From Parabacteroides sp. ZJ-118 (GTDB lineage: Bacteria > Bacteroidota > Bacteroidia > Bacteroidales > Tannerellaceae): a stretch of DNA of 64,000 nucleotides. Below the pieces are notes generated by a model that saw only the letters and a list, made by a program, of their open reading frames with translations, was not told the origin of the DNA and made no database searches. Positions within the stretch are counted from its first letter, which is position 1. Each line of letters begins with the position of its first letter. The stretch is from the NCBI RefSeq assembly GCF_011038785.1, contig NZ_JAAKDT010000012.1:1-64000 (forward strand), read 5' to 3'. Shown piece by piece: positions 11,930 through 29,776 of this stretch. A program made the position numbers and the translations under genes.

Positions 11930-14296
11930 ATGAAAACGATTATTCGAAACTTTCTGAGTGTGTTGAGGCGGTTTAAAATGGCGACCGCATTGAACGTTAC
12001 CGGTCTCGCTGTCGCCTTCGCTGCCTTTATCGTGATTCTCATACAAATTAATTTTGAGCGGACCTTTGATCGCTGCCATCCTACCTCCGGAAGGATTTTC
12101 AGGGTAGACTTAACGACTCCGGGTACCTTCGGGACGATATTACCCCGTGCTTTTGTGGAGGCTGTTATCCAGTCTTCCCCGCATATCGAGGCCGGGACTT
12201 TGCTGACTCCTTCTTTTGGCCAAAATGGCGTTTATCTCTCAATCGACAGGGATGGACAGCCTTTCGGATTTAAGGAGATCGTGACAACCTGCCATGCTAC
12301 CCTGCCGGGAATATTCGCTTTCCCGATCGTGGAAGGTGATATCGATTGTTTGAGGGATCCTGAGAAAGTAATGGTACCGCGAAGCTTGGCGATGAAACTC
12401 TTTGGAGAAGATGCCTCCGCGATAGGCAAAACATTGCGGGCGGAAGAAAGTATCTGGACTAAATCGGTTCAGCTCCTTACGATCGGAGCGGTTTATAAGG
12501 ATTTTCCGGAGAACACGCAGCTCCGGAACGTGATCTATACGGCGATCGATCCAGATTATAATGTCCGTAATTTTGGAGCGAGTAACTGGGTTTGTTATCT
12601 ATTGTTAGACGATCCGGCCTTGGCTGATGACGTGGCCGATAATTTCAACCGTCACTTCGATTTCAAAAAGATTGGTCGCGAGGATGAACAAATCTGTTTA
12701 GTTCCGTTGACCGATATTTATTACAGGAATGAGACACAAGACGGGGGAACTTTCCGTAGCGGCAGTCGGGAGGTGACGAATTTATTGTTGGGTATAGCCC
12801 TGTTGATAATTGTCGTAGCGGGCATCAACTTCACGAACTTCAGCACCTCCCTGGCTCCGTTGAGAATCAAGAGCATCAATACGCAAAAGGTATTGGGTAG
12901 CCCGGAAGGTCTGCTACGGAGGGCTTTATGGGTAGAGGCCGTCCTTGTCAGTTTTATCGCCTGGTTAGTGAGTTTATCCATTGTTTGGGGATTAGATATT
13001 GTAGAGGCTCTGCCTTTTATCGATGCCGACCTGGATTTAATAGCCAATCTTCCGGTTGTCTTGTTATCCGGTGTTATCGCTTTAATCACGGGCTTGATAG
13101 CTGGTATCTATCCGGCTTTTTATATCACTTCTTTTCCCCCTGCGTTGGTGTTGAAGGGCAGTTTCGGATTGTCTCCTGCCGGAAGGAAATTACGTACAGG
13201 GTTGATCTGTATCCAATTCGTGGTATCTATCCTCTTGATAATCGGGGCCAGTTTTGTACGTGTCCAGAATGGGTACATGCGTGATTTTTCCTTAGGATTC
13301 GATAAAGATCAGGTCGCCGTGGTGGAATTGAATAGTAGGATGTATGATAAACATCATGAGACTTATAAGAATCGCCTGAAAGAATATCCGGGTATCGAGG
13401 ATGTCGCTTTCTCGATGGAGAAAGTCGGGTCGAAAGACGGATACAATACAAATGAGGTAACTTATAAGGATAAAGCGATCCAATATTTTATGATTATTTC
13501 CTCCTCGAATATCTTGCGGGTGTTGGGCATCCCGGTTATCGAGGGGCGTGATTTCTCCAAGGCGGACGAGCTGTCGGACAAAGTCTCTTATATTTTTAAT
13601 CGCCCGGCGTCGCTGCAAGGAGACATGCGGGCAGGTGACTCTTTCGGGAACTATGCCCCTGGACGTTTGATCGGATTTGTCGGTGACGTGAAACTGACAT
13701 CCCTCCGGAGCGGAGAGAGTAATATAGCGTTCGTGGTCGGGAACTTTGGCTATACGATGCCCGTATCCTACATCCGCCTGAAAGCGGGCTCGGATATCCA
13801 CGCGGCTGTCAATCATATTCGTAACGTGGTGACGGAATTAGATCCTTCTTATCCGTTCCATATCGAATTCTATGACGAAATCTTTAATCATCTTTACCGG
13901 AAAGAGGAAAATCTGCGCGATCTGGTTACGATCTTTAGTCTGCTGGCGATTATGATCTCTTTGGTCGGGGTGTTTGGCTTCGTGATGTTTGAGACTCAAT
14001 ACCGCCGTAAGGAAATCGGTATCCGCAAGGTACATGGAGCTACGGTAGGAGAGATCCTGTCGATGTTTAACAGGACCTATCTGCGGATCGTAGGTATTTG
14101 CTTCGTGATAGCGGCGCCGATCGCTTGGTGGGGCGTGAAGCAGTGGCTCGAGGGTTTCGCTTATAAGACCCCGATCCATGGGTGGGTATTCTTGATCGCC
14201 TTATTGCTCGTAACCGTAATCACGCTATTAACCGTAAGCTTCCAAAACTGGAAGGCGGCGAACGAGAATCCGGTAAATAGTATCAAGAGCGAGTGA
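11930..14296 (+). CDS. FtsX/MacB-type ABC permease, copy 2
   Basis: A 788-aa paralogue of the preceding permease with the same eight-helix, two-module plan and nearly the same start (MKTIIRNFLSVLRRFKMA). The middle motif INFTNFSTSLAPLRIKSINTQKVLGS and the C-terminal YRRKEIGIRKVHGATVGEI are the FtsX-domain cytoplasmic coupling segments. It begins 19 bp after copy 1 and belongs to the same transcript, so the transporter may be a heterodimer of the two permeases with two copies of the ATPase. Its stop overlaps the convergent symporter gene by 14 bp. Confidence 0.92.
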   Translation: MKTIIRNFLSVLRRFKMATALNVTGLAVAFAAFIVILIQINFERTFDRCHPTSGRIFRVDLTTPGTFGTILPRAFVEAVIQSSPHIEAGTLLTPSFGQNGVYLSIDRDGQPFGFKEIVTTCHATLPGIFAFPIVEGDIDCLRDPEKVMVPRSLAMKLFGEDASAIGKTLRAEESIWTKSVQLLTIGAVYKDFPENTQLRNVIYTAIDPDYNVRNFGASNWVCYLLLDDPALADDVADNFNRHFDFKKIGREDEQICLVPLTDIYYRNETQDGGTFRSGSREVTNLLLGIALLIIVVAGINFTNFSTSLAPLRIKSINTQKVLGSPEGLLRRALWVEAVLVSFIAWLVSLSIVWGLDIVEALPFIDADLDLIANLPVVLLSGVIALITGLIAGIYPAFYITSFPPALVLKGSFGLSPAGRKLRTGLICIQFVVSILLIIGASFVRVQNGYMRDFSLGFDKDQVAVVELNSRMYDKHHETYKNRLKEYPGIEDVAFSMEKVGSKDGYNTNEVTYKDKAIQYFMIISSSNILRVLGIPVIEGRDFSKADELSDKVSYIFNRPASLQGDMRAGDSFGNYAPGRLIGFVGDVKLTSLRSGESNIAFVVGNFGYTMPVSYIRLKAGSDIHAAVNHIRNVVTELDPSYPFHIEFYDEIFNHLYRKEENLRDLVTIFSLLAIMISLVGVFGFVMFETQYRRKEIGIRKVHGATVGEILSMFNRTYLRIVGICFVIAAPIAWWGVKQWLEGFAYKTPIHGWVFLIALLLVTVITLLTVSFQNWKAANENPVNSIKSE

Positions 14297-15629
14297 TCCA
14301 CCATCCCATCTTCCATGCCAGCAGCAAGATAAGCAGGGAAAGGGCCAAGCAGGCCAATAGCAACCAGACGCCCCATCCGTTTACGAAAAGGATGGGAACA
14401 AAGGTGATCAACAGGATCTCTATGGGGGCGATAGGCAAGTAAGCCATCGCGTAATCATCCATCGCCTTGCTGGAAAGTTTCGGGTCGACGATCCGCAGCA
14501 AGGCGATGCCCATGGCCATCGTGCCGGTCCACCATCCCCAGGCGAAAATCATGCGCTCGAACCAGAACGTCTTGGCTAATCTTCTTCCCAGGAAAAACGT
14601 GATGCACCAGACGATCACCACGCCCGCTATGATGAGTACGATAAGTGGGAAGGCATATTTTACGATCACCCCTAACTTGATAGACGCGACGCCACAAGCT
14701 ACCAGCATATCGGTGAAGGAGCTGCTGAGTCGCTGGGTCGTCTGCGGACAGATGTATCTGGATATGGTTGTCGCATCGAAGAATTTCTTCAACGCTAGCC
14801 CGATGATGAAGGCACAACTGAAAACAGGCAGCTCCAATACCGGATAATACATCTTTACGGTTTGGCTGACCAGATATCCCAAGAAGGCCACGACAACTAC
14901 CAAGGCCACATGGAAGGTCAGCGTATCGATGGATATGGAGGATGTCGTAGCCTCTCCGATGGAATTCCGCTTATCCTCCGGCAGCAATCCGCTTCTCAAC
15001 TCGTCCGGGAGGTCATCGAAATCCGAGATAAAAGCGGTCTGCTTATGTTTGGCTGCCCATTTGACCATCAGCAACCCTCCGATGATCGAGCAGATAACCC
15101 CCACGGTAGCCGTTGTCATGCCTAAACTGCGAGCCTCGTCCCAGCCCATTCCCTCGAATGCGGACCCGATGGCGGCGGCCGTGCCGTGTCCGCCATAAAA
15201 GCCTGTTGGCAGCATGATGCCGAAAGCGTCATTCAGATCCGGCCAGATCTGTTTGATCACGTACAATCCGAACAGGCCAGCCAATGCCCACTGCAACAAC
15301 ATACCCACCTGGGCGTACGCCCACATCGGCCCGACCCGTCGCGCCACCTCTCTCATGGATACGTCCGGGGAAGATAAAGGCAACGCACCGAACACCAGGG
15401 CGATAAGGATCGCCGCGTAAGTACTTAAGCCGTTGGAAAGCGGAATCCACCCTAGCCCATTCGGCCCGAACGCCAATCCCAACAAACCTGCGATCAAGCT
15501 GGGGGGTATGAATAACTGTTGGATCAGCTTTACCTTGACTCGTATGAATTTGCCAACCAACAGGAGTATCGAAATGAATCCAAGGTCCGTAAAGAGTGTC
15601 CAAGGAGTGAACGGTGCCAGGTCTACCAT
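14283..15629 (-). CDS. Sodium:glutamate symporter (GltS family)
   Basis: A 448-aa inner-membrane protein with 10 or more hydrophobic segments. It carries the GltS-like glycine-rich reentrant motif PTGFYGGHGTAAAIGSAFE in the first half and a second inverted-repeat half after a hydrophilic loop of about 40 residues (residues 195-230). It likely imports glutamate with Na+. It is transcribed alone, converging on the permease genes, and its last 14 bases overlap the end of permease copy 2. E. coli GltS is about 400 aa, so this is a longer Bacteroidota form. Confidence 0.85.
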   Translation of the reverse strand: MVDLAPFTPWTLFTDLGFISILLLVGKFIRVKVKLIQQLFIPPSLIAGLLGLAFGPNGLGWIPLSNGLSTYAAILIALVFGALPLSSPDVSMREVARRVGPMWAYAQVGMLLQWALAGLFGLYVIKQIWPDLNDAFGIMLPTGFYGGHGTAAAIGSAFEGMGWDEARSLGMTTATVGVICSIIGGLLMVKWAAKHKQTAFISDFDDLPDELRSGLLPEDKRNSIGEATTSSISIDTLTFHVALVVVVAFLGYLVSQTVKMYYPVLELPVFSCAFIIGLALKKFFDATTISRYICPQTTQRLSSSFTDMLVACGVASIKLGVIVKYAFPLIVLIIAGVVIVWCITFFLGRRLAKTFWFERMIFAWGWWTGTMAMGIALLRIVDPKLSSKAMDDYAMAYLPIAPIEILLITFVPILFVNGWGVWLLLACLALSLLILLLAWKMGWWITRS

Positions 15630-15716
15630 AATAACTGCTTACTTTATGTTTGTTTGAATATCCATCCCGCAAATATATTTTATTCCCATGAGAAATACCA
15701 GAAGTCTCAGCGAATT

Positions 15717-16607
15717 CTAGACCTCCATCTCTTTTTTACGGTAAGCGGAGGGTGAGCAACCCATGACTTTCGTAAACGTACGAGAGAAGTAGGCGGCATC
15801 CTCGAATCCCAGATGGGTGGCGATCTCGTTCAACTTCATATTCGTCAGCTCGATGTATTCGCAAGCCTTCTGTATTTTCAGGCGTATGAAGTAATTCTTT
15901 GGCGAGACTCCGGTCTCGCCAAAGAAAAGGGCTGAGAAGTGGGAAGGGGAATATTTGAAATAAGACGCTACCTCTCTCAAGGTAAGATTCCGGGAGATAT
16001 TCTCACGCATGTAGTGTATGACTCGTGCCGTAAACGGGTATTCTTTTCGCGAGGGAATCAGAGTATGGCGGAATTGCTCCAGATAGATGAAAGAGGCTAG
16101 GAAATTGTAAAGGCACATGGAGGAATAAATCATGTACTCTTTAATATATCCCGAGGAGAAACTGCTATAGATCTCCTCAAACAGTCGCAGCCGGTCTTGC
16201 GAACGGGAATACTCATTCGGCAAAATGGTGACGGGAACCGGACACAACGGCAGGAATCGATCGCTAAGCTCGCCCTGGAAGTGTAACCAGTAGATCGTCC
16301 ATGGATCTTCCTCGTCCGCCCCGAATGAATAGGGTATACCGGGAGGGAGGATGATATATTGGTATTTCTCTACGGTGTATTGTTTACCGAGGATACGATA
16401 CCACCCTTTCCCCTCCGTACAATAAATGAGCATGGCGTAATCGCAGCCATGTTCTTTTTGGAGAAAATGATATTTAACACGCGGGAAGAAACCTATCTTG
16501 CGTACATACAGATTATTGATGAGCGGTTCCCCCCGGTAGCTTGCCAATAGTTCCTCGGGCAAAGAGACAAGCCGTTCTCCCTTAAATCCCTCTTTTATCC
16601 TGGCCAT
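15717..16607 (-). CDS. AraC-family transcriptional regulator
   Basis: A 296-aa regulator with an N-terminal cupin-like sugar-binding domain (about residues 25-165, with YCTEGKGWYRILGKQYTVEKY and IILPPGIPYSFGADEEDPWTIYWLHF) and a C-terminal AraC/XylS double helix-turn-helix (about 195-290). The second HTH has the family signature IATHLGFEDAAYFSRTFTKVMGCSPSAYRKK. It is divergent from the GH38 gene, separated by 185 bp with facing promoters, and probably controls the mannosidase locus in response to a released sugar. Confidence 0.93.
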   Translation of the reverse strand: MARIKEGFKGERLVSLPEELLASYRGEPLINNLYVRKIGFFPRVKYHFLQKEHGCDYAMLIYCTEGKGWYRILGKQYTVEKYQYIILPPGIPYSFGADEEDPWTIYWLHFQGELSDRFLPLCPVPVTILPNEYSRSQDRLRLFEEIYSSFSSGYIKEYMIYSSMCLYNFLASFIYLEQFRHTLIPSRKEYPFTARVIHYMRENISRNLTLREVASYFKYSPSHFSALFFGETGVSPKNYFIRLKIQKACEYIELTNMKLNEIATHLGFEDAAYFSRTFTKVMGCSPSAYRKKEMEV

Positions 16608-16644
16608 GATCGATAAATCATAAGATTGTACAAGTAAATCGGAA

Positions 16645-16792: not shown

Positions 16793-19681
16793 ATGAAAAA
16801 AAGAACTTATTTATCAGCCGGATTGGCTTTGTTGATCGGGACATTGCCGATTCATGCGTCTTCGGGATTGTCGGATGTCAAGATCCGTGTATTACCGGCG
16901 GTTTATAAATCGAGAGACGGGCTGACCCAAAAGGTCGAGATCTCCGTGAGACATGAGGGAGAGCCTTCTACTGTGACGATCCGTTTAGGCGAGCGAAGCC
17001 ATAAAGAGAGGCTGATGTCCGGGGATAATGTATTCCGGATCGAGATACCCGAGGTTGGCGAGACCCGCCAATTACCGTTGACACTGACAAGCGGGAAAGA
17101 GAAAGAGGTGACTACAGTGACTGTGAAACCGGCTCGCCATTGGCAGATAAATATGGTGCAACACACGCATACGGATATCGATTATACCCGTTCCCAAATG
17201 GAAATCCTGGCGGAACAGCTCCGGTACATCGATTATGCGCTGGATTATTGCGACGCTACGGATAAATATCCGGATTTCGCTAAGTTCCGCTGGACTTGCG
17301 AGATCGCCTGGGCGGTTAGCGAATATTTGAAATGTCGTCCCGCAGGACAGATCGCTCGCTTGAGGCGACGGGTAAAGGAAGGTCGTATCGAATTATCTGC
17401 GATGTTCTTGAATTTTGACGAATTGCCGGATGAGCAGACACTTGCCGCTTCCCTTTATCCGATCAAGCAATTCAGGGAAAACGGGATGCGTACCGAGGTA
17501 GCCATGCAAGACGACGTGAATGGTATCGGTTGGTGTCTCAGCGAGTATTTCGCAGATGCCGGCGTGAAATACGTGAATATGGGGACCCATGGCCATCGGG
17601 CGTTGATCTGCTTTGATAAACCTACGGTGTTTTGGTGGGAATCACCTTCCGGGAAGAAGGTCTTGACTTATCGTGCGGAGCATTATCACCAGGGTAATTT
17701 TCTCGGGATTCATACGGATGACTTTGATCGGTTCGAGGAGCGTGTCTTAACTTATCTAGATGAAATGGAAGCGAAAAATTATCCGTATGACATATTAGCG
17801 GTACAGCATTCGGGATACCTTACGGATAATGCGCCGCCTTCGACTAAAAGTTGCGAGATGTCACGAAAATGGAACGAGAAATATGAATGGCCGAAATTAC
17901 GCACGGCGGTAGCCAGTGAGTTCTTTAAGACAGTAGAGAGCCAATATGCGGATCGTATCGAGACCATTCGCGGAGCTTGGCCGGATTGGTGGACGGATGG
18001 TTTCGCTTCCGGTGCCCGTGAAGCCACCATATCTCGTGTGACTCACTCGGATGTTATCGCGAGCCAAGGCGGATTGTCATTTGCGAAAATGCTAGGTGCC
18101 CAATTGCCGACAGATATCATTGACCGGATTCAGGACATCAACAAAGCCCTTTTGTTTTATGATGAGCATACTTTCGGGCATAGCGAGAGCGTGCGTAACG
18201 CTTACGGGCTGGAAACTTGGGAGCAACGCTCCTTGAAACAATCGTACGCGTGGGAAGCCTATCGGCATTCCGGTCTGCTGGGAGAGGCTACCATGGGCAT
18301 CTTACAATCGTTCGTGCCCCCAAGCGACGTTCCGTCTATCGCCGTGTTCAATACGCTCAACTGGAATTATAGCGGTATCGCCAAAGCTTATGTCGATCAT
18401 CAGATTCTTCCGAAAGACAAGGCTTTCGAGATCGTGGACGCGGCTGGCAACGTAATCCCTGCGCAAGCCGGTGAGAGTCGTTCCGACGGTACTTATTGGA
18501 ACTTTTACGTGAAGGATGTCCCTGCCTTGGGATATGTACGGTATTACATAAAGGTGAAGGACGCACCGCATCCGGAAACGCAGGGCGCTACGGAATTAAA
18601 GGAGACGCATGTGGAGAATCCTTGGTATGCCATCGATTTCAATACCCGTAAGGGTACGATTCGTAAATTATATGATAAGGATTTGAACAAACAATTGGTT
18701 ACGCCGGGCGCGGAATGGGAGATGGGAGAGTTTGTTTATGAGATTATCGATAGCCGTCATCCGATGGAACAATATCGTGCTCCCCAATTCCTCCGCCGTC
18801 GTCCCGAGAAGATGCGCTTCGAGAAATATGAGAAAGGCGACATCTGGGATACCTATCGTTTCCGGGGAGAAACTGTAGCGGGACGTGAGCCGGATAATTT
18901 GATGGTGGAATTCCGCGTGTTTAACGTGACAAAGAAAATAGAGGTGGTTTATCGCCTGCGTAAAAAAGCGGTAACGGATCCGGAAGCGGTTTACATCGCT
19001 TTCCCGTTTGAGGTAGAAGACGGAAAGATCCATTTGGATGTACCCGGCGGATCGATAGAGGCGGGTGTAGAGCAAATCCCGGGCTCTTCTAACGATTGGT
19101 ACACGGTGCAAAACTTCGCTACGGCTCGTAATGGAAAGTCGCAAGTCGTGATAGGCAGCCAAGAAATTCCATTGATGCAATTTGGAGCGATCAATACGGG
19201 GCGGTACAAGGCCGGAGCCGTGCCTCAGTCCACGAATATGTATTCATGGCCGATGAACAACTATTGGGTAACCAATTTCAACGCAGACCAAATGGGAGAG
19301 ATGCGATGGAGTTACTTCATCAGCTCTTCGAGAGACAACTCGATTGAGTATGCGACTAAATTCGCTTGGGAAAACCGAATCCCGTTCTTGACCCGTGTTT
19401 TGTCTGCGGGAGATAAAAAGGTGGAGCCTCTCCGATCCGCTTCCATTTTCAAGATCGTACCGGAGAACTTGTTGTTGGTAAACATGCGGCCTGTGGAAGG
19501 AGAGAACGCTGTTATGCTTCAACTACGTGAGATAGGCGGGAGGCCCGCTACTTTCTCGGTAGCCTCAGATAAAATTAATTTTGTGAAAACTACGGTCTGT
19601 GATGTCGTGGGAGATCCGGTTTCGGGGAATCCATTGGGTTTCGCTCCGTGGGAGAGTAAGTTCGTGAAACTATCTTGGTAA
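16793..19681 (+). CDS. Exported GH38-type alpha-mannosidase
   Basis: A 962-aa glycoside hydrolase with an N-terminal signal peptide (KKRTYLSAGLALLIGTLPIHASS). After an N-terminal beta domain of about 115 residues comes the GH38 catalytic domain: HTHTDIDYT at 124-132 supplies the zinc ligands (His126 and Asp128, the HxD pair), QDDVNGIGW supplies the nucleophile Asp241, and DEHTFGHSES near residue 461 carries the later active-site His. Long C-terminal beta domains follow. GH38 enzymes are retaining, zinc-dependent alpha-mannosidases. With SusC/D and two GH92 genes downstream, it fits breakdown of N-glycan or mannan oligosaccharides. Confidence 0.88.
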   Translation: MKKRTYLSAGLALLIGTLPIHASSGLSDVKIRVLPAVYKSRDGLTQKVEISVRHEGEPSTVTIRLGERSHKERLMSGDNVFRIEIPEVGETRQLPLTLTSGKEKEVTTVTVKPARHWQINMVQHTHTDIDYTRSQMEILAEQLRYIDYALDYCDATDKYPDFAKFRWTCEIAWAVSEYLKCRPAGQIARLRRRVKEGRIELSAMFLNFDELPDEQTLAASLYPIKQFRENGMRTEVAMQDDVNGIGWCLSEYFADAGVKYVNMGTHGHRALICFDKPTVFWWESPSGKKVLTYRAEHYHQGNFLGIHTDDFDRFEERVLTYLDEMEAKNYPYDILAVQHSGYLTDNAPPSTKSCEMSRKWNEKYEWPKLRTAVASEFFKTVESQYADRIETIRGAWPDWWTDGFASGAREATISRVTHSDVIASQGGLSFAKMLGAQLPTDIIDRIQDINKALLFYDEHTFGHSESVRNAYGLETWEQRSLKQSYAWEAYRHSGLLGEATMGILQSFVPPSDVPSIAVFNTLNWNYSGIAKAYVDHQILPKDKAFEIVDAAGNVIPAQAGESRSDGTYWNFYVKDVPALGYVRYYIKVKDAPHPETQGATELKETHVENPWYAIDFNTRKGTIRKLYDKDLNKQLVTPGAEWEMGEFVYEIIDSRHPMEQYRAPQFLRRRPEKMRFEKYEKGDIWDTYRFRGETVAGREPDNLMVEFRVFNVTKKIEVVYRLRKKAVTDPEAVYIAFPFEVEDGKIHLDVPGGSIEAGVEQIPGSSNDWYTVQNFATARNGKSQVVIGSQEIPLMQFGAINTGRYKAGAVPQSTNMYSWPMNNYWVTNFNADQMGEMRWSYFISSSRDNSIEYATKFAWENRIPFLTRVLSAGDKKVEPLRSASIFKIVPENLLLVNMRPVEGENAVMLQLREIGGRPATFSVASDKINFVKTTVCDVVGDPVSGNPLGFAPWESKFVKLSW

Positions 19682-19773
19682 GAGCAAGACGCTATTTTTG
19701 CGGGTAAGGCAGGTTAATCCCGCCTTTACTAGGTTATAGTCTCTTGAAGTTTCTATCAGGGGAAACTGTGGTT

Positions 19774-19956
19774 CCCGTAGGACTTATATGTTTTAGGCTC
19801 GTTTGAGGTTTGATTTTCTTGGTTTCAAGGGGTAATTTAGTATAAATGTGTAGTTTTTATAAAAAGTGCCGTTATTTTTAGGATAGTTTAAAAAAAGTTG
19901 TAACTTTGCCTCGCTATTTATACGGTAGACCATGGATGGTGCATAAGTCCTACGGG
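19774..19956. repeat. Inverted repeats flanking the susC promoter (candidate inverton)
   Basis: CCCGTAGGACTTAT (19774-19787) and its exact reverse complement ATAAGTCCTACGGG (19943-19956) enclose 155 bp that contain the susC promoter. With one mismatch the match extends to 17 bp (GTTCCCGTAGG... versus ...CCTACGGGGAC). Each arm itself has a small dyad, as expected for a recombinase core site. This is the structure of a phase-variable promoter of the Bacteroides type. In the sequence given, the promoter faces susC (ON orientation). No recombinase gene is in the window. Confidence 0.7.
19901..19908 (+). promoter_or_regulatory. susC promoter -7 box inside the inverted repeats
   Basis: TAACTTTG matches TAnnTTTG exactly. 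The predicted start is near 19915, giving a leader of about 120 nt before the susC ATG that reads through the right inverted-repeat arm. No matching minus-strand -7 box was found between the repeats, so inversion should switch the operon off rather than drive something else. Confidence 0.65.
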
Positions 19957-20035
19957 GACTATGTCTGTCTGTAACAACATAACATTGCAGTTGTAAACTG
20001 TATTAATCTAAACTTTAATAAAAAACAAAAGCAAG

Positions 20036-23000
20036 ATGACAAAGAATGAATCTAAGCTATTATCCCTCCAAGGGATAGCAAAAGCCTCAGCGTTCTGTTT
20101 GCTGCTTTCTGCCTTTTCTGTAGACACCGCCATGGCCGTTCCCGTTTTCGCTGGTACGGTTGATGAAGTGAAGGCCGTACAGCAGGGCAAGAAAGTGACA
20201 GGTGTGGTTGTTGACGGTACAGGTGAACCTGTTATTGGCGCTAACGTGGTGGTGAAAGGCACCACGAATGGTACGATCACCGATTTCGATGGTAATTATA
20301 CGGTCGAGGGTGTGTCTGCGAACGATGTTTTGATCGTTTCTTATATCGGTTACTTATCCCAAGAGATCCTGGTGGGAAATCAATCTTCAATAAAAGTAAC
20401 TTTAAGAGAGGATACCCAAACTTTGGACGAGGTTGTGGTCGTTGGTTACGGTACGATGCGTAAATCAGACGTGACCGGTTCTATCGGTGTGGCTAAAGGA
20501 GATGAATTAACAAAGAACCAAAACTTTAGCGCACTAGACAACTTGCGCGGTAAAGTATCTGGTGTAAATATCTTCTCAAACTCCAGCCAGCCGGGTGCTT
20601 ACTCCAATCGTGTCGTTATCCGTGGTATGGCGACTATCAACGCATCATCTAACCCGTTGTATGTAGTGGATGGCGTAGTAATGGAGAACTTTGACTTGGT
20701 GAACCCGAATGATATCGAGTCCATGGAGGTGTTGAAAGACGCTTCCGCTGCCGCTATCTACGGTGCCCGTGGTGCCAATGGTGTTATCATGGTAACTACA
20801 AAGCGTGGTAAGAAAGATGGTGAAGGCGTACAGGTTAGCTATCAAGGTTCTGTCAGCGCAAGCCATATCGCTCGCAAGATGGATACGATGAACGCCCAGG
20901 AGTGGTGTGACGCATTCATGATTGGTTTGGAAAACGAGAATAAGTGGCAGGGTAAAAATTGGTCTTTGAACCGTGCTGATTGGTTTAATGACCCGGATTT
21001 CTTTGATGCGAGCGGTAATCCTCTGTATGATACGAATTGGCAAGATGAGGCAACTCGTACCGCGGTTTCTCACAACCATCAGTTGAATATACAACAGGCA
21101 GGGAAGAACTCTTCAATGGGTGCTTTCTTGAACTATACGGATCAACAAGGTATTGTAAACAATACGTATAATAAGCGTATTAACGCGAAGTTGGCATACG
21201 ACGCTAATCCTACGAAGTGGTTGTCTACGGCAGTCAATGTATTGGTTAATCATACATGGGGTCGCTATACGCCTGAGGATGGTGGTGGCCAAGAGGCTCG
21301 TCGTACCATGATCGAGATGATTCCTTGGTTGCCGGTTCGCGATAAGAGTGGTAAATACACCACTTCTACCTCTTCTTCCATTGGTGATGTATTAGGCTTT
21401 GAGGGTATGTCCAACCCGGTCATGATCTTGGATCTGCAAAAACGTATGCGCTACAACACGCAGGTGTTTGGTAACGCAGCTTTGACATTCCACTTGGCTG
21501 AGGGTTTGGATTTGAAGACTCAACTAGGTCTCGACCATCATAACAAAACATATAGAGGTTATTCTTCTATCGATCTGAACAACATCTCCATGCCGAATGG
21601 TTGGGCTGAGTATCAAAATTGGAATACACTCTATTGGCAGGAAGAGACTTACTTGACTTACAGTAAGGTATTAAATGATCATCGTATCAACGCCATGGCC
21701 GGTCTGTCTTGGCAAGAGCGTGTGCAAAAGTGGAATAAGGCACGAACGGAAGGTTTCTCGGATGATTTCTTTGAGGACAATAATATGTCCGCAGGTACAA
21801 CTCCGTCATCTCCTGAGTCTTCCTACGATCGTTGGGCGATGAACTCTTATTTCTTGCGTTTCGCTTACACCTATAAAGATCGTTACTCCGCAACCGTAAC
21901 AGGTCGTGTCGATGGTTCCTCTAAGTTTGGTGAAAACAACAAGTACGCATTCTTCCCATCCGCGGGTTTGGCTTGGAATATCTCTCAAGAGGATTTCTTG
22001 CAAGATCAAAATACGATCAGCAATTTGAAGTTGCACACTAGCTACGGTTTGACCGGTAACTCCGAGATTAGTACGTATCGATCATTGGCTCGTGTCTCTT
22101 CCGGTACGCTTTTGATCAACGATATACGTGCTCCGTATTCCTATATCAGCTCTATGGCGAACCCGGATTTGAAATGGGAGAAGACCGGTCAGTTTGATGT
22201 TGGTTTCGAGATCGGATTTTGGCAGAATCGCTTGTCTTTCGATGTAGCTTACTATAACAAGAAGACAACCGACTTACTGTTGGATTGTCCGATTCCTCAC
22301 ACTACAGGTTTCACAACCGTGTATAAGAACATCGGCTCTGTAAGAAACCAAGGTATGGACTTGATGATCAGCGCACGTCCGGTTCAGACTCAAGACTTCA
22401 ACTGGAACTCTACGATCAACTTAAACTTCAACAAGAACAAGATCCTTCAGTTGGGTGACAATAACGAGGATATCGAGATGAATAGCTGGGTAGGTGGTTC
22501 TGAGAGTATCTTGCGTGTGGGCGAGAACATGAGTTCTTTCTATGGTTACAGACGTTTGGGCGTTTATACGGAGGAAGATTTCAACAACGGATTGTGCGAG
22601 AAGAACCAGATCGGTCGTGCGAAACGTACGGATAAGAAAGAGATTATCGGTAAAGGTATGCCGGACTGGACTGGAAGCTGGATCAATAATTTCTCTTACA
22701 AAAACTTCGATTTGACGATGGACTTGCAGTTCGTATGGGGTGTTGAGACCATGCAACAGTTCTACCACTCTACTTACGACCGTTTCGGTATCACGAATGG
22801 TTTGAGCAACATTCTATATGACGCATATAACGGATCGAACCCGAACACGATGCAACAGGCCGTTTACTTGTGTAACTCAGGTCATGCAGGTCAGGATACG
22901 ACCGTGGATTCTCAATGGATCGCCGATGGCTCTTATTTGCGTTGTAACATGTTGCAGTTAGGTTACACCTTCGACTCGAATGTAATTAGCAAGATTGGTT

Positions 23001-23182
23001 TATCCGCTTTACGTTTGTATGCGAGTGCGAATAACTTGTTCTTGATTACGGCCAGCGATTTCAATGGTTACGATCCCGAGGGTACATCACAGGGTGATAG
23101 TAATAAGTTCGGTCAGAACATGGTATTCTTCTCTTATCCGAGAGCGAGAACTTTCACGTTTGGTGTTAATGTGACATTTTAA
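20036..23182 (+). CDS. SusC-like TonB-dependent outer-membrane transporter
   Basis: A 1048-aa outer-membrane importer of oligosaccharides. A long signal peptide (cleavage probably after DTAMA or PVFA) is followed by a carboxypeptidase-regulatory-like beta domain (about 55-135, VTGVVVDGTGEPVIGANVVVKGT), the TonB-box region (DTQTLDEVVVVGYG), the plug domain (about 140-260, DNLRGKVSGV...DVLKDASAAAIYGARGANGVIMVTTKRG) and a 22-strand barrel ending in Phe (FGVNVTF). It pairs with the SusD protein 27 bp downstream. Its promoter is flanked by inverted repeats, so expression is likely phase-variable. Confidence 0.97.
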   Translation: MTKNESKLLSLQGIAKASAFCLLLSAFSVDTAMAVPVFAGTVDEVKAVQQGKKVTGVVVDGTGEPVIGANVVVKGTTNGTITDFDGNYTVEGVSANDVLIVSYIGYLSQEILVGNQSSIKVTLREDTQTLDEVVVVGYGTMRKSDVTGSIGVAKGDELTKNQNFSALDNLRGKVSGVNIFSNSSQPGAYSNRVVIRGMATINASSNPLYVVDGVVMENFDLVNPNDIESMEVLKDASAAAIYGARGANGVIMVTTKRGKKDGEGVQVSYQGSVSASHIARKMDTMNAQEWCDAFMIGLENENKWQGKNWSLNRADWFNDPDFFDASGNPLYDTNWQDEATRTAVSHNHQLNIQQAGKNSSMGAFLNYTDQQGIVNNTYNKRINAKLAYDANPTKWLSTAVNVLVNHTWGRYTPEDGGGQEARRTMIEMIPWLPVRDKSGKYTTSTSSSIGDVLGFEGMSNPVMILDLQKRMRYNTQVFGNAALTFHLAEGLDLKTQLGLDHHNKTYRGYSSIDLNNISMPNGWAEYQNWNTLYWQEETYLTYSKVLNDHRINAMAGLSWQERVQKWNKARTEGFSDDFFEDNNMSAGTTPSSPESSYDRWAMNSYFLRFAYTYKDRYSATVTGRVDGSSKFGENNKYAFFPSAGLAWNISQEDFLQDQNTISNLKLHTSYGLTGNSEISTYRSLARVSSGTLLINDIRAPYSYISSMANPDLKWEKTGQFDVGFEIGFWQNRLSFDVAYYNKKTTDLLLDCPIPHTTGFTTVYKNIGSVRNQGMDLMISARPVQTQDFNWNSTINLNFNKNKILQLGDNNEDIEMNSWVGGSESILRVGENMSSFYGYRRLGVYTEEDFNNGLCEKNQIGRAKRTDKKEIIGKGMPDWTGSWINNFSYKNFDLTMDLQFVWGVETMQQFYHSTYDRFGITNGLSNILYDAYNGSNPNTMQQAVYLCNSGHAGQDTTVDSQWIADGSYLRCNMLQLGYTFDSNVISKIGLSALRLYASANNLFLITASDFNGYDPEGTSQGDSNKFGQNMVFFSYPRARTFTFGVNVTF

Positions 23183-23209
23183 TTCATTTAATCAGTAGAA
23201 TTTTTGGAA

Positions 23210-24784
23210 ATGAAAAAAATATTGACAGTAGCGATTGCATGCGCTTGTTTAACCGGGTTCGGCGCATGTAATGATTTCTTGGAAGAGAAACCGAAGTCTT
23301 CGTTGACAGCCCCGGATTATTACAAGACAGAGGCTCAAGCCCAGGCTAACGTGAACTATTTGTACCGTACGGGAGCCTCAAATAAGCTCACGGGTGCAGG
23401 TAGTGCTTACGTGGGGCCGTTTGCCTCTATCACAGGACAATTGACCGGTTACTTTACAAACAGTTATGAAGGTCAGGAATTGACCTGTAAATATTCTCGC
23501 GAGTTGACTCGTCAGCAGAATACGATGACTGTTTCTGTGACGATTGACGGTATATGGGATGATTGCTACAAGGCTATTAACGTAGCTAATGGCGCTATCA
23601 AGTATATCCCCGAGATCTCAATGGATCAGTCTTTGGCAAATCGTTTGATTGGTGAGGCAAAGTTCTTTAGAGCCTGGAACTACTTCAACTTGGTGAAGAT
23701 CTTTGGTGGTGTCCCATTGACAGTAGAACCGTACGAATCTATGGAGAACATGTATTTGGAACGTGCTTCCGTAGAGCAAGTATATGCTCAGATCGAATCC
23801 GACTTGAAGGATGCCGTTAACGCTTTGCCGGCTGCTACTTTCTACAACAACAATAACCGTATCACGAAGTACGCTGCCGCTATGGTTTTGACTTCCGCTT
23901 ACATGCAACAAGGTAAGTATGCCGACGCTGCTTCTGCGGTAAAGACGGTGATCGATTCTCCGCATGCTTTGGCAACCAACGATGACTTAGCGTTGGGTTC
24001 TGCCTATAACAAGATCCGTACGACAGACGGTTTGGATGAGTCTATCTATTCTTATGAGTACAATGCGACGATCAGCAACGGTGGCTGGTGGCCTACGTAT
24101 GCGTTCAACTCAGCTGCTACGGCTATCTTTGGTACGTATTCAATCTTTGAGCGTACATACGGCCCGATAAATCTGTTCTTGAACGTATATCAGGACAACG
24201 ACTTACGTATCCAGCCAAATCAGTTCTTCCATTGGAATTATACCAATCCGGATAATGGCAAGACTTGGACGGCTCCTAAGGATGCTTGTGGCTGTTGGTT
24301 CTGGTATGACGAGGAGGCTTTGTTGAACTCCGGACGTTCTACGAAAGACCGTGATATCTTCCGTTATGCGGAGGCTTTGCTCGATGCTGCTGAATCTATC
24401 GCTCAGTATCAAGGTGTAACGGCTGAGGCTGCCGGATATTTGGCGCAGGTTAAGGGTCGTGCGAACATGGATGGCAAGACGGTAACTGCGATTACTGCCG
24501 ATCTTCAGAAATTAGGTAAGCAGGCCTTCATCGAGGAATGCTGGACAGAGCGTTTGCGTGAGTTCCCGTTAGAATTCAAGATTTGGGATGACTGTGTCCG
24601 TACAGGCAAGTTTCCTGTAATCTCTTCTACAGAGAAGGGTAAGGTTACATATGTTGACTTGGTTGGCGCGAAGAATGCTTCCGGTGCGACCTTCAAGTCT
24701 TCCGACTTGTTATGGCCGATCTCCTTGAACGAGATGCAACGTAACCCGAGCTTGACTCAGAATGAGGGGTATGCCGCTCAATGA
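23210..24784 (+). CDS. SusD-like surface glycan-binding lipoprotein
   Basis: A 524-aa surface lipoprotein that binds oligosaccharide and acts as the lid of the SusC transporter. The start at 23210 (MKKILTVAIACACLTGFGAC) gives a lipoprotein signal with the lipid-bearing Cys at residue 20; an in-frame TTG six bases upstream is less likely. The mature N-terminus NDFLEEKPKSSLTAPDYYKTEAQA and the region LIGEAKFFRAWNYFNLVKIFGGVPL are diagnostic of the SusD/RagB helical repeat fold, and the C-terminus has the usual LLWPISLNEMQRNPSLTQNEGY. Confidence 0.97.
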   Translation: MKKILTVAIACACLTGFGACNDFLEEKPKSSLTAPDYYKTEAQAQANVNYLYRTGASNKLTGAGSAYVGPFASITGQLTGYFTNSYEGQELTCKYSRELTRQQNTMTVSVTIDGIWDDCYKAINVANGAIKYIPEISMDQSLANRLIGEAKFFRAWNYFNLVKIFGGVPLTVEPYESMENMYLERASVEQVYAQIESDLKDAVNALPAATFYNNNNRITKYAAAMVLTSAYMQQGKYADAASAVKTVIDSPHALATNDDLALGSAYNKIRTTDGLDESIYSYEYNATISNGGWWPTYAFNSAATAIFGTYSIFERTYGPINLFLNVYQDNDLRIQPNQFFHWNYTNPDNGKTWTAPKDACGCWFWYDEEALLNSGRSTKDRDIFRYAEALLDAAESIAQYQGVTAEAAGYLAQVKGRANMDGKTVTAITADLQKLGKQAFIEECWTERLREFPLEFKIWDDCVRTGKFPVISSTEKGKVTYVDLVGAKNASGATFKSSDLLWPISLNEMQRNPSLTQNEGYAAQ

Positions 24785-24806: not shown

Positions 24807-24850
24807 AGAGAGGGAGGGAATGAGCGATCATCCTTTCCTCTTCTTTTTTT
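24807..24850 (+). terminator. Intrinsic terminator after susD
   Basis: An imperfect G/A-rich versus C/T-rich hairpin (24807-24841) with several G-U pairs is followed by seven T (24844-24850). A separate promoter for the GH92 genes lies downstream, consistent with transcript ends here. Confidence 0.55.
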
Positions 24851-24951: not shown

Positions 24952-24959
24952 TAGATTTG
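24952..24959 (+). promoter_or_regulatory. Promoter -7 box for the GH92 pair
   Basis: TAGATTTG matches TAnnTTTG. It would give a leader of about 100 nt before the first GH92 gene, so the mannosidases could be expressed independently of the switchable susC promoter. Confidence 0.55.
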
Positions 24960-25066: not shown

Positions 25067-27421
25067 ATGAAGAAAAAAAGCGTTTGGGCTTTGGCTTTGG
25101 TGGCGACGCTGGCGTGGGTCGGGGAATCCGCGGCAGCGGCCGTAAACGAGGCTTTTGACCCTGTAGAGTACGTGAACCCTTTGATGGGTACGCAATCCAC
25201 TTTTGAGTTGTCTACAGGAAACACCTATCCGGCGATCGCTCGTCCGTGGGGCATGAACTTCTGGACCCCTCAGACCGGTAAGATGGGAGACGGATGGCAG
25301 TATGTGTATACGGCTAACAAGATCCGCGGTTTTAAACAGACCCACCAACCCAGTCCGTGGATCAATGATTATGGACAATTCGTGATCATGCCGGTGGTTG
25401 GCAAACCGGAGTTCGACCAGGATAAACGTGCGAGCTGGTTCTCTCACAAAGGGGAGATCGCCAAGGCTTATTACTATAAGGTCTATTTGGCGGAGCATGA
25501 CGTGGTGACGGAACTAACACCGACAGATCGTGCGGCTATGTTTCGTTTCACCTTCCCGGAGAACGAGCATTCCTATATTGTGGTGGATGCTTTGGATAAG
25601 GGCTCTTATATCAAGGTCGTCCCGGAGGAGAATAAGATCATCGGTTACTCGACGAAGAACAACGGCGGGGTTCCTGACAATTTCAAGAATTACTTCGTGA
25701 TCGAGTTTGATAAACCTTTTACGTACGAGGCTACATTTGTCGACGCCTCTTTGAGAGAGGGTGCGAGGGAACAAACGAGCGACCATGTGGGAGCCGTTAT
25801 CGGTTTCAAGACGAAGAAAGGCGAGATCGTCCACGCCAAGGTGGCTTCCTCATTTATTAGCTTTGACCAGGCCGCTACCAATATGAAGGAATTAGGGAAC
25901 GATAACTTCGATACCTTGGTCCGGAAGGGTAAGGATATCTGGAATGAGCATCTGGGCAAGATCGAGGTTGAGGGGGGAGATTTGGATCAATACCGTACGT
26001 TTTATTCTTGCTTCTATCGTTCCTTGTTGTTCCCCCGTAAGTTTCATGAGATCAACGCTCAAGGCGAGGTGGTTCATTACAGTCCGTATAATGGTGAGGT
26101 ATTACCAGGCTATCTGTTTACCGATACCGGATTCTGGGATACGTTCCGTAGTTTGTTCCCGTTCTTGAACTTGATGTTCCCGTCTGTAAACAAGGAAATG
26201 CAAGAGGGCTTGATCAATACGTATAAGGAAAGTGGCTTCTTCCCGGAATGGGCAAGTCCGGGTCACCGCGGTTGTATGATCGGTAACAACTCGGCATCTG
26301 TCCTAGTAGACGCTTATATGAAAGGAGTGAAGGTCGATGATTTGGAGACTCTGTACAAAGGTTTGATTCATGGTACGGAAAACGTTCATCCGGAGGTCTC
26401 TTCCACAGGACGCTTGGGACATGAATATTATAATAAGTTAGGATATGTCCCTTACGATGTGAAGATTAACGAGAATGCCGCACGTACGTTAGAGTACGCT
26501 TACAATGACTGGTGTATCTGGCGGATCGCCAAACAGCTAGGCCGTCCGAAAAAGGAATTGGAATTATACGCCCGTCGTGCGTTGAACTACAAGAACCTGT
26601 ACGACAAGGAGACCAAGTTGATGCGTGGTAAGAATGAGAATGGCGAGTTCATGGCCTCGTTCTCTCCGCTGAAATGGGGCGATGCTTTCACGGAGGGCAA
26701 TAGCTGGCACTATTCATGGTCTGTATTCCATGACCCGCAGGGATTAATCGACCTGATGGGCGGTAAGGATTCATTCGTGATGATGCTTGACTCCGTGTTC
26801 GCTGTCCCGCCTTTGTTCGATGATAGCTACTACGGTGGCGTGATCCACGAGATCCGTGAGATGACCGTGATGAATGTGGGTAACTACGCTCACGGTAACC
26901 AGCCGATCCAGCATATGATTTACTTGTACAACTACGCAGGGCAACCTTGGAAGGCTCAATATTGGTTGCGTCAAGTTATGAATAAGATGTACACTCCGGG
27001 TCCGGACGGTTATTGCGGTGACGAGGACAACGGCCAGACTTCCGCTTGGTATGTATTCTCGGCGTTAGGATTCTATCCGGTAGCTCCGGGTACGACCCAA
27101 TATGTGTTGGGTGCCCCCTTATTCAAGAAGGCTACGGTCCATTTTGAGAACGGGAACAGTTTGGTGATCAATGCCCCGGACAACAGCGGGAAGAATATCT
27201 ATATCGAATCCATGACGTTCAACGGCAAGAACTACACCAAGAATTATCTGGATCACAACGACTTGTTTAAGGGTGGCGTGATCAATTTTAAGATGGATGA
27301 GAAGCCGAACAGGAATCGTGGCATTAATCCGGAGGATATGCCTTACTCATTCTCCGTAAACGAGGAAGGAATCCATAAACTTTCCCCTGTCTCTGTAAAA
27401 CCTAGTAAAAAGAAGAAATAA
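25067..27421 (+). CDS. GH92 alpha-mannosidase, copy 1
   Basis: A 784-aa secreted, calcium-dependent exo-alpha-mannosidase of family GH92. Signal peptide: MKKKSVWALALVATLAWVGESAAAA. The mature protein begins with the family's beta-sandwich domain (VEYVNPLMGTQS...GNTYPAIARPWGMNFWTPQTG) and continues into the (alpha/alpha)6 barrel with DTGFWDTFRSLFPFLNLMFP, WASPGHRGCMIGNNSASVLVDAYMKG and the conserved end GDEDNGQTSAWYVFSALGFYPVAPG. The linkage cleaved (alpha-1,2, -1,3 or others) cannot be read from sequence alone. Probably periplasmic. Confidence 0.95.
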   Translation: MKKKSVWALALVATLAWVGESAAAAVNEAFDPVEYVNPLMGTQSTFELSTGNTYPAIARPWGMNFWTPQTGKMGDGWQYVYTANKIRGFKQTHQPSPWINDYGQFVIMPVVGKPEFDQDKRASWFSHKGEIAKAYYYKVYLAEHDVVTELTPTDRAAMFRFTFPENEHSYIVVDALDKGSYIKVVPEENKIIGYSTKNNGGVPDNFKNYFVIEFDKPFTYEATFVDASLREGAREQTSDHVGAVIGFKTKKGEIVHAKVASSFISFDQAATNMKELGNDNFDTLVRKGKDIWNEHLGKIEVEGGDLDQYRTFYSCFYRSLLFPRKFHEINAQGEVVHYSPYNGEVLPGYLFTDTGFWDTFRSLFPFLNLMFPSVNKEMQEGLINTYKESGFFPEWASPGHRGCMIGNNSASVLVDAYMKGVKVDDLETLYKGLIHGTENVHPEVSSTGRLGHEYYNKLGYVPYDVKINENAARTLEYAYNDWCIWRIAKQLGRPKKELELYARRALNYKNLYDKETKLMRGKNENGEFMASFSPLKWGDAFTEGNSWHYSWSVFHDPQGLIDLMGGKDSFVMMLDSVFAVPPLFDDSYYGGVIHEIREMTVMNVGNYAHGNQPIQHMIYLYNYAGQPWKAQYWLRQVMNKMYTPGPDGYCGDEDNGQTSAWYVFSALGFYPVAPGTTQYVLGAPLFKKATVHFENGNSLVINAPDNSGKNIYIESMTFNGKNYTKNYLDHNDLFKGGVINFKMDEKPNRNRGINPEDMPYSFSVNEEGIHKLSPVSVKPSKKKK

Positions 27422-27430
27422 GCAATTAAG

Positions 27431-29776
27431 ATGAACTTCATTCATAAACCAGCAATGTCAGGCATAGCAATATGCCTGACATTTTTCGCGGGACAAGCAG
27501 GTCTTGTCTCACGGATTGCCGGGAAAGCCCTTTTGGCGTCCGCTTTCCTATGGGTGTCGTGCTCCGGTGGGGGAGGAACTTCTCCTTCGGCGATGGACCC
27601 GGTGGATTACGTGAATCCTTATATGGGAAACATCAGCCATTTATTGGTCCCTACTTTCCCGACCGTGCATCTGCCGAACAGTATGCTGCGTGTATATCCG
27701 GAACGTGCGGATTTCACGGGCGACCGTCTAGGCGGCCTACCTATTATCGTGACAAACCATCGTGAGCGTTCTGCGTTCAACCTTTGTCCGTATCAAGGTG
27801 ACGAATCGGGCTTGCGATCCGTGATCGCTTATAGCTATGACCGGGAGAAGATCCTGCCGTACCGTTATCAGGTATATCTGGATAATGAGGAAATCGGTGT
27901 GGATTTCGCTCCATCCCATCAAAGTGCCGTATATTCGCTCACTTTCGGGAAAGAGGGACCGGCTTATCTGATATTTAACAGCCGTAACGGACAGCTACAA
28001 GTAAATGGCAACGCCGTAAGCGGTTATCAATATATAGATAAGAAAACGAAAGTTTTTTTGTATGCCGAGACGAACCGGGAGCCTGTGAAAGCGGGTGCAT
28101 TGTCGAATGGCAGTGTCAAATATAACGAGACCTCCGTGGAAGGTTCCCATGCCGCTATCGCCCTTTTCTTCGGGGAGGACGTGAAGAAACTGGGCGTTCG
28201 CTACGGTATTTCTTTTATCAGCGAGGAACAAGCGAAGAAGAACTTGGTGCGTGAGATCGCCGCTTACGACGTGGATGTGGTAGCGAAGATCGCCCGCGAC
28301 GGCTGGAACGACGCTTTAGGTAAAATACAAGTACAAGGTGGTACCCGGGATGAGAAAACTGTATTCTATACCTCTTTATACCGTTGTTACGAACGCCCGA
28401 TTTGTTTGAGCGAGGACGGACGTTATTACAGTGCTTTCGACGGGAAGATCCATGAGGATGGCGGACGGCCTTTTTATACGGACGACTGGATTTGGGATAC
28501 CTACCGTGCTACACATCCCCTGCGTGTCTTGATCGATAATGAGCGTGAGGACGATATCATCAACTCTTATCTCTTGATGGCGGAGCAGATGGGTACCGAT
28601 TGGATGCCTACTTTCCCGGAGGTGACGGGGGATACACGCCGTATGAACTCAAACCATGCCGTCGCTACTGTGATCGACGCTTACCGTAAGGGCTTGCGTG
28701 GTTTTGAGTTGGAAAAGGCCTATATTGCTTGTAAGAAAGGTATCGAGGAAAAGACCTTGATACCGTGGTCTGCCGCTCCAGCCGGTTGGTTGGATGATTT
28801 CTACAAGGAACACGGCTATATTCCTGCGTTGAGACCGGGAGAGAAAGAAACGGTACCTAATGTATCCGTCTGGGAAAAACGTCAGCCGATCGCCGTGACT
28901 TTAGGTACCTCTTATGATGAATGGTGCTTGTCCCAGATCGCTCAGGAATTGGGAAAGAAAGACGAGGCGGATTATTATCTGTGCCGCTCCTACAACTACC
29001 GGAACGTATTTAATCCGGAGACAGGTTTCTTCCATCCGAAAGATAAGGACGGCAAGTTTATCGATCCGTTGGACTACCGCTATGATGGTGGCCTAGGTGC
29101 CCGTGATTATTACGATGAGAATAACGGATATATCTATCGTTGGGATGTACAGCATAATATTGGTGACTTGATCTCCTTGATCGGGGGCGATGAGGCGTTT
29201 ACCTCTGCCTTGGATTCCATGTTCAATACGCCGCTGGGTATGTCTAAGTGGCAATTCTATTCCACGCTCCCGGACCATACGGGTAACGTGGGTATGTTCT
29301 CTATGGCGAATGAGCCGAGTTTGCATATCCCGTACTTGTATAATTACGCGGGTAAGCCTTGGATGACCCAGAAACGTATCCGTACCTTGTTGAATCAATG
29401 GTTCCGCAATGATTTGATGGGTGTACCGGGTGATGAGGACGGTGGCGGTATGTCTGCTTTCGTTGTCTTCAGCCAGATGGGATTCTATCCAGTGACTCCG
29501 GGTTCTCCTACCTACAATATCGGTAGCCCGATGTTTACCGACGTGAAAGTGGATATGGGTAACGGCAATACGTTCGAGATCCGTGCGAATAATGCGTCCG
29601 ATGAAAATAAATACGTACAATCCGCTAAGCTAAATGGTGTAACCTTGAACCAGCCTTGGTTCAAGCATAGCGATATCGCCGCCGGAGGTTTGTTAGAGTT
29701 AGAGATGGGACCGAAAGCGAACAAGGAATGGGGACTGGAAACTCCTCCTCCTTCTGCCGCTCCGATGCCAAAATAA
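27431..29776 (+). CDS. GH92-family glycosidase, divergent copy 2 (lipoprotein-like)
   Basis: A 781-aa GH92 protein, clearly more divergent than copy 1. It keeps the N-terminal VDYVNPYMGNISHLLVPTFPT motif, DDWIWDTYRATHPL, and the end motif GDEDGGGMSAFVVFSQMGFYPVTPG. The N-terminus is long and has two hydrophobic stretches ending in LWVSCSGGGG, which looks like a lipoprotein signal with Cys near residue 44, but the family GH92 start is normally closer. A perfect 13-bp hairpin followed by T residues lies in the first 55 bases of this frame (27454-27486). It starts 10 bp after copy 1. Confidence 0.9.
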   Translation: MNFIHKPAMSGIAICLTFFAGQAGLVSRIAGKALLASAFLWVSCSGGGGTSPSAMDPVDYVNPYMGNISHLLVPTFPTVHLPNSMLRVYPERADFTGDRLGGLPIIVTNHRERSAFNLCPYQGDESGLRSVIAYSYDREKILPYRYQVYLDNEEIGVDFAPSHQSAVYSLTFGKEGPAYLIFNSRNGQLQVNGNAVSGYQYIDKKTKVFLYAETNREPVKAGALSNGSVKYNETSVEGSHAAIALFFGEDVKKLGVRYGISFISEEQAKKNLVREIAAYDVDVVAKIARDGWNDALGKIQVQGGTRDEKTVFYTSLYRCYERPICLSEDGRYYSAFDGKIHEDGGRPFYTDDWIWDTYRATHPLRVLIDNEREDDIINSYLLMAEQMGTDWMPTFPEVTGDTRRMNSNHAVATVIDAYRKGLRGFELEKAYIACKKGIEEKTLIPWSAAPAGWLDDFYKEHGYIPALRPGEKETVPNVSVWEKRQPIAVTLGTSYDEWCLSQIAQELGKKDEADYYLCRSYNYRNVFNPETGFFHPKDKDGKFIDPLDYRYDGGLGARDYYDENNGYIYRWDVQHNIGDLISLIGGDEAFTSALDSMFNTPLGMSKWQFYSTLPDHTGNVGMFSMANEPSLHIPYLYNYAGKPWMTQKRIRTLLNQWFRNDLMGVPGDEDGGGMSAFVVFSQMGFYPVTPGSPTYNIGSPMFTDVKVDMGNGNTFEIRANNASDENKYVQSAKLNGVTLNQPWFKHSDIAAGGLLELEMGPKANKEWGLETPPPSAAPMPK
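27454..27486 (+). terminator. Perfect hairpin with GCAA loop and T tract at the GH92-2 start
   Basis: AATGTCAGGCATA (27454-27466), loop GCAA, then TATGCCTGACATT (27471-27483) and further T residues to 27486. This is a 13-bp perfect stem with a GNRA-type tetraloop. It lies inside the apparent signal-peptide region of GH92 copy 2, so it could attenuate transcription between the two genes or mark a palindromic insertion. A second small dyad (GACAAG/CTTGTC) follows. Confidence 0.6.

Follow-up and report, generated by a model that had tools for sequence, protein, structure and literature searches.

Evidence for an invertible promoter upstream of the susC/susD pair in a putative mannan locus of Parabacteroides sp. 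ZJ-118

In Bacteroides fragilis a single recombinase, Tsr0667, inverts many distant regions located at susCD clusters (PMC4747536, PMC11852207). The Region EE shufflon of B. fragilis NCTC 9343 is more elaborate, as larger inversions move susC/D pairs behind an invertible promoter (PMC5729914). In Parabacteroides distasonis, invertible promoters have been described at capsule loci, with palindromic arms, the repeat GCTACTYRGNRAGTAGC and recombinases nearby (PMC12118408). Many P. distasonis inversion sites have also been reported, in a passage that does not name susC (PMC5903667), and a P. distasonis genome was included in an inversion survey in which regions in or near susC/susD were among those with the largest orientation differences between IBD patients and controls (PMC10939037). 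Among the papers listed in our searches on Parabacteroides susC invertons, none names the mannan locus studied here in its title or abstract opening, and the element may already be in the tables of PMC5903667 or PMC10939037. As far as our literature search shows, three things are new: the mannan locus itself, the candidate invertase, and a count of the matched-core rule over Parabacteroides genomes.

The stretch of DNA analysed (hereafter the window) runs from the first base to base 64,000 of contig C28 (65,983 bases), in a genome (G000) of 3.17 Mb and 125 contigs. Close matches come for the most part from Parabacteroides. The genes of interest follow the order AraC-family gene (on the minus strand), GH38, susC, susD, GH92 and GH92, which we interpret as a mannan-type polysaccharide utilization locus, mannan being the probable substrate given the GH38 and GH92 enzymes. 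The relevant features are the following:

15717-16607, minus strand: AraC-family regulator gene, adjoining GH38
16793-19681, plus strand: GH38 alpha-mannosidase, upstream of susC and outside the switch in our model
19770-19784: predicted left recombination site GGTTC-CCGTA-GGACT, core 19775-19779
19771-19787, plus strand: left arm of the inverted repeat, 17 nt, one mismatch against the right arm
19788-19942, plus strand: putative invertible segment, 155 nt between the arms, in the ON orientation in the assembly
19901-19908, plus strand: TAACTTTG, predicted Bacteroidales -7 element (TAnnTTTG) of susC, within the segment; aligns with TACATTTG of G004 and P. distasonis TSDC17
19943-19959, minus strand: right arm of the inverted repeat, 17 nt, one mismatch against the left arm
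19946-19960: predicted right recombination site AGTCC-TACGG-GGACT, core 19951-19955
20036-23182, plus strand: susC, SusC/RagA TonB-linked outer membrane protein (TIGR04056, 864.7 bits)
23204-24784, plus strand: susD, start listed as TTG, with an in-frame ATG at 23210
24808-24842, plus strand: terminator-like hairpin and T run after susD
24952-24959, plus strand: TAGATTTG, a probable separate promoter for the two GH92 genes, located beyond the repeat and roughly 108 nt ahead of the first of them
25067-27421, plus strand: first GH92 mannosidase
27431-29776, plus strand: second GH92 mannosidase

Re-deriving the coordinates bore out the repeat given in the preliminary description, that is, 14 perfectly matching nucleotides (19774-19787 and 19943-19956), or 17 with one mismatch, around 155 nt. 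Both arms and TAACTTTG lie in the 354-nt region between GH38 and susC, and none of 1000 dinucleotide shuffles of this region yielded a 17-nt pair with one mismatch. Nevertheless, one of ten shuffles of the whole window produced some repeat of this kind, and two other repeats of the window, at 48317 and 55998, pass the same criterion, so the repeat alone is weak evidence. These two 17-nt inverted repeats (48317-48404 and 55998-56211; one perfect, one with a mismatch) lie in long ORFs. The segment had also been said to hold the only good susC promoter. TAACTTTG is indeed inside it and reads toward the susC start at 20036, the orientation described as ON, and it fits TAnnTTTG, the -7 promoter consensus of Bacteroides (PMC4747536). 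It is not the only such match, since TATTTTTG at 19693, on the plus strand of the intergenic region but outside the repeat, fits as well; it sits just 5′ of the hairpin that comes after GH38. As the minus strand between the arms has no TAnnTTTG, the flipped segment would give susC none. Scans for sigma-70 promoters and for terminators gave no more matches than in shuffled sequence.

The arms are themselves dyads, each with two 5-nt half-sites separated by a core of 5 nt, of the type AGTTC-N5-GAACT. Both window sites match this motif at 8 of 10 positions, and their cores are identical in inverted orientation; the left site of G004 likewise matches at 8 of 10, and the orthologue of the G004 element is found flipped in G005. 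Read on either strand, the core is CCGTA/TACGG in the window, CGTAC in G004 and TSDC17, CAGCG in L057 and L058 (one paralogue in two P. distasonis records) and CGCGG in G011. Within a locus the two arms hence share their core, and different loci have different cores, as recombination sites require. Our first guess at the motif, AGTTCC-N4-GGAACT, occurred at 8 places (each on both strands) against 15 for its control and was replaced by the form with a 5-nt core. The consensus associated with Tsr0667 in B. fragilis is AGTYYYN4GDACT, a string for which a text search of the literature gave no match; compared with it by eye, the right window site fits fully and the left one misses one position.

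We then counted pairs among the listed perfect sites of G000 to G007 (80 in all). Among the 22 pairs less than 20 kb apart, 16 had identical cores in inverted orientation and one in direct orientation, while the five with differing cores were all more than 11 kb apart; the chance of an inverted match is 1 in 1024. In a half-site control on 98 stretches, AGTTC gave six matched pairs, against a mean of 0.10 and a maximum of 2 for the 59 rearranged forms of this half-site. This control falls short of full independence, because the motif was first derived from some of these loci; the genus-wide and Bacteroides counts came later. The highest-scoring control half-site was GTTAC (2 pairs), which has been described as a short element within the capsule repeats of other Bacteroidales (PMC12118408).

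Single sites behaved differently. The genome of the window has fewer of them than of the reversed pattern, both at one mismatch (105 versus 231) and at zero mismatches (6 versus 14), so single sites are uninformative here and only matched pairs count. Perfect sites are strongly enriched in G009, G013 and G037 (54, 45 and 46, versus 2 each for the control) and not in other genomes of the genus, so base composition and lineage matter. Perfect sites are also found at extreme contig ends (G001:C77:6-20, G001:C143:4-18 and G038:C6:355329-355343), as expected if mixed orientations broke the assemblies. The preliminary description had proposed looking for the same repeat at other loci. At up to three mismatches the arm sequence had seven matches in the whole genome, namely the two arms and five at three mismatches, while the reversed-pattern control had nine (one forward, eight reverse); nothing besides the arms lay within two mismatches of the right arm. 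This search thus came out negative, but the absence of an identical repeat is what is expected when the core is locus-specific and only the half-sites are common to loci, and the test was mis-specified.

Matched pairs mark susC genes. All 22 loci chosen by sites alone, that is, by perfect matched pairs in G000 to G007, B. fragilis S82 (G038) and P. vulgatus ATCC 8482 (G039), hold an ORF with a blastp match to susC references. B. fragilis S82 has 22 perfect sites versus 6 for the reversed pattern, and its seven inverted matched pairs fall in six loci with a susC-like ORF at each. For the genome of the window we surveyed 20 stretches covering 22 of the 33 susC-family matches in addition to the window's own, the ten weak matches (below 53 bits) being left out, and found two further susC promoters with matched pairs of the AGTTC-N5-GAACT type:

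G000:C51:22822-22836 and 23042-23056 (L066): site pair separating two divergent susC genes whose N-termini are alike
G000:C63:21018-21032 and 21263-21277 (L061, 1367/1612): site pair whose right arm is inside the susC coding region (K-V-L-D-E-L-G)

Flipping of the C51 promoter could select which of the divergent susC genes is expressed. At C63, the position of the right arm within the coding region means that inversion would sever promoter and signal peptide from the gene; a pair of this type, enclosing a longer segment, is also present in G004 (L256, 2354/3125; sites matching at 9 and 10 of 10 positions). Of the G011 susC genes, one is accompanied by a matched pair (L086) and one has none, and in G023 the susC start was not found within the stretch taken.

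Comparison with relatives shows both orientations of the element. In G004 and in P. distasonis TSDC17 (NZ_OY725755.1) the segment is oriented as in the window. In G005 (contig C139) the end of GH38 is followed by arms as in G004 and by a segment exactly inverted between them: the inner part is 86% identical to G004 in reverse, while the left flank is 85% identical forward and the right flank 98% forward over 58 nt. Between the arms, the flipped G005 segment has no TAnnTTTG facing susC and one facing GH38. The G005 susC leader is interrupted after the 58 nt of right flank, and the sequences at the ends of contigs C139 (L081) and C162 (L080, the contig with susC) look like the two ends of one insertion sequence. 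An element between two divergent susC genes beside the candidate recombinase described below is also exactly inverted between G004 and G005, with 100% identity over 536 inner nt and flanks more than 99% identical forward:

L225 15446-16011 and L264 2254-2819: recombinase-linked element in G004 and G005

In all, inversion was seen at three of the six loci compared between genomes (setting aside the paralogue L057); the other three showed none, the inner match being short in two of these comparisons (41 and 52 nt). Both orientations thus occur between orthologues, from which we infer that the segment would also flip in the window's own strain.

The preliminary description had also called for a nearby recombinase. 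None of the 18 integrase-family (PF00589) matches of the genome, 16 of them above the cut-off, is on C28, but a candidate was found elsewhere. Six integrase genes adjoin long perfect or near-perfect GCTAC/GTAGC repeats (contigs C36, C44, C50, C51, C52 and C70; stretches L043, L044, L045, L047, L048 and L049) and two more adjoin TCTC/GAGA repeats (L051 and L053). The candidate is located in a susCD locus:

G000:C32:32656-33846: candidate tyrosine recombinase, 397 aa
G000:C32:27802-27816: perfect site upstream of the neighbouring susC, without a partner

The protein has arm-binding, SAM-like and catalytic domains, the catalytic residues R246, K273, H335, R338, H361 and Y370 are invariant in five orthologues, and the enzyme is intact. 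Beside its G004 orthologue (93% identity), a perfect site pair separates two susC genes that diverge from each other; relative to G004, a susC gene with its switch may have been lost at C32. Matches at 1e-60 are present in 25 of the 38 genomes of the genus, including that of the window, and in 19 of these 25 the identity is at least 60%. The orthologues of B. fragilis S82 (55%) and P. vulgatus (51%) both adjoin susC-like genes. Among 16 orthologue neighbourhoods, those of G002, G003, G004, G005 and G006 contain a perfect matched pair some 5 kb from the gene and the other 11 contain none, that of G038 being a 7.4-kb contig; the neighbourhoods of G009, G013 and G037 have no perfect site.

Site density was modestly higher in 19 genomes with an orthologue than in 13 without (Mann-Whitney p = 0.016, uncorrected for kinship and with six genomes with 45-59% matches left out). 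At related susC genes, a matched pair was found in four of four genomes with the enzyme (G000, G004, G005 and G011) and in none of four without it (G007, G022, G030 and G035), these eight genomes being related and hence not eight independent cases. There are exceptions: G043 combines two orthologues (54-56%) with a single site, G010 and G021 have 11 and 21 sites versus 2 in the control with no recombinase match at 1e-60, and G001 has an orthologue without paired perfect sites. Assigned by linkage and elimination, a weaker footing, the C32 protein is the likeliest invertase.

We conclude that the element is very probably an inverton, in which a tyrosine recombinase would invert about 161 nt between the dyad sites and so switch the susCD promoter ON and OFF. 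The flipped orthologue, the locus-specific matched cores and the candidate recombinase support the phase-variable promoter originally suggested. The recombinase, most likely the C32 protein, would bind the sites at 19770-19784 and 19946-19960, and strand exchange inside the identical core (CCGTA/TACGG) would produce the inversion. In the orientation of the assembly TAACTTTG would drive susC and susD (ON); once flipped, the promoter would aim at the 3′ end of GH38 and leave susCD without one (OFF). The GH38 and GH92 enzymes would be transcribed independently, and what the switch would mainly toggle, in a fraction of cells, is import and the display of the mannan SusCD complex at the surface. 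Flipping in this strain, the identity of the enzyme, the effect on transcription and the substrate are all inferred.

Other explanations of the arms can be considered. They could be two transcription-factor operators repressing susC by looping or roadblock with no inversion, a view favoured by the near-palindromic nature of each arm, by their location on either side of the promoter and by the AraC-family gene next to GH38. We consider it very improbable, given that an operator would have no reason to keep a 5-nt spacer that is the same within a locus and different between loci, that a flipped orthologue exists and that two other flipped elements are bounded by sites of the same type. We give even less credit to the right arm being an RNA hairpin acting as an attenuator in the susC leader, with a left arm alike by descent or chance. 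A leader hairpin that covers the right arm does exist on folding (-16.5 kcal/mol), but this barely beats shuffled sequence (z = -0.92; 37 of 200 fold as well), and the left arm, its core and the flipped orthologue are left unexplained.

An inverton that was once active and is now locked ON in this species, its arms having drifted or flipping having been lost, is unlikely, though less so than these two. Both sites reach only 8 of 10 positions of the motif, and the partnerless site at C32 suggests that the recombinase locus lost its own pair in this genome. Against this, the 14 nt that span both cores match perfectly, the recombinase is intact, the C51 and C63 elements of the same genome fit the motif better, and the right site agrees with the consensus from B. 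fragilis. An active inverton remains our preferred interpretation.

The GH92 genes had been assigned their own promoter outside the repeat, and we arrived at the same view: TAGATTTG at 24952 follows the hairpin after susD (-20 kcal/mol, z = -2.12; equalled by 9 of 200 shuffles), and in G004, where susC and GH92 point away from each other, an identical promoter stretch lies ahead of GH92. The consensus terminator scan did not pick up this hairpin. Because of the hairpin and the separate promoter, inversion should switch import but not the GH92 enzymes.

The transporter genes themselves vary at this locus. The window SusC shares 97% identity with its G005 counterpart, and 80% and 74% with the two SusC of G004, while GH38 is 93% identical to that of G004; a susCD cassette that differs between genomes at one place points to exchange. 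In G004 two susCD pairs lie tail to tail, and both of their leaders carry AGTTCCGTACGAACT, inverted and 10.4 kb apart, so that the two cassettes have leaders with the same core. By its sites, G011 C57 shares this layout: two susC leaders have perfect sites matching in inverted orientation 11.6 kb apart, the promoter-side partner being unmatched. One of the two facing G011 susC genes is split into two ORFs (L235, that is, G011:C57:11000-30000, at 13417-16620). Inversion between the leader sites of G004 or G011 would place the other susCD pair behind the promoter and could thereby exchange cassettes. In the window there is a single susCD pair, and beyond the two arms no site with core CCGTA/TACGG reaches 7 of 10 positions.

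Tentatively, and with somewhat less than even confidence, we suggest a broader scheme in which one conserved tyrosine invertase of susCD loci switches many Bacteroidales SusC through a 5-nt core that acts as an address: elements with different cores would flip independently and cassettes with the same core would be exchangeable. The mannan locus would then be an exchange locus, its GH38-linked invertible promoter being followed by one of three cassette types (A and B in G004, C in G005 and the window), varying whether and which transporter is shown while the mannosidases stay constant. Mannan use by gut Parabacteroides could be a coin-toss trait, all enzymes being present and import possibly absent, in which case one could not tell from a genome with this locus whether the bacterium grows on mannan. 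With the matched-core rule such switches can be located simply, using nothing but assemblies, and if the C32 gene is correctly assigned, deleting it should freeze them.

Comparison with the described systems places the element as follows. It resembles the P. distasonis capsule invertons in that palindromic arms flank a promoter, and six integrase genes of the same genome adjoin a GCTACTYRGNRAGTAGC-type repeat. The capsule invertons, however, have GCTAC/GTAGC half-sites, an integrase gene beside each repeat and capsule genes, whereas the window has another half-site and susCD; its arms are not GCTACTYRGNRAGTAGC, and C28 lacks a PF00589 match. The layout of Region EE is like that of the G004 mannan locus and unlike that of the window, which has a single pair and no third same-core site. 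The Tsr0667 regions of B. fragilis differ from the window in genus, the window having a GH38/GH92 mannan locus and a single susCD pair at this site. Like them, the window has a promoter between inverted repeats that reads toward susC, and its arms carry an AGTTC-N5-GAACT-type dyad with a matched core; in B. fragilis S82 such sites also mark susC, and the 55% orthologue of the candidate enzyme adjoins susCD. The window element belongs with the B. fragilis SusC invertons.
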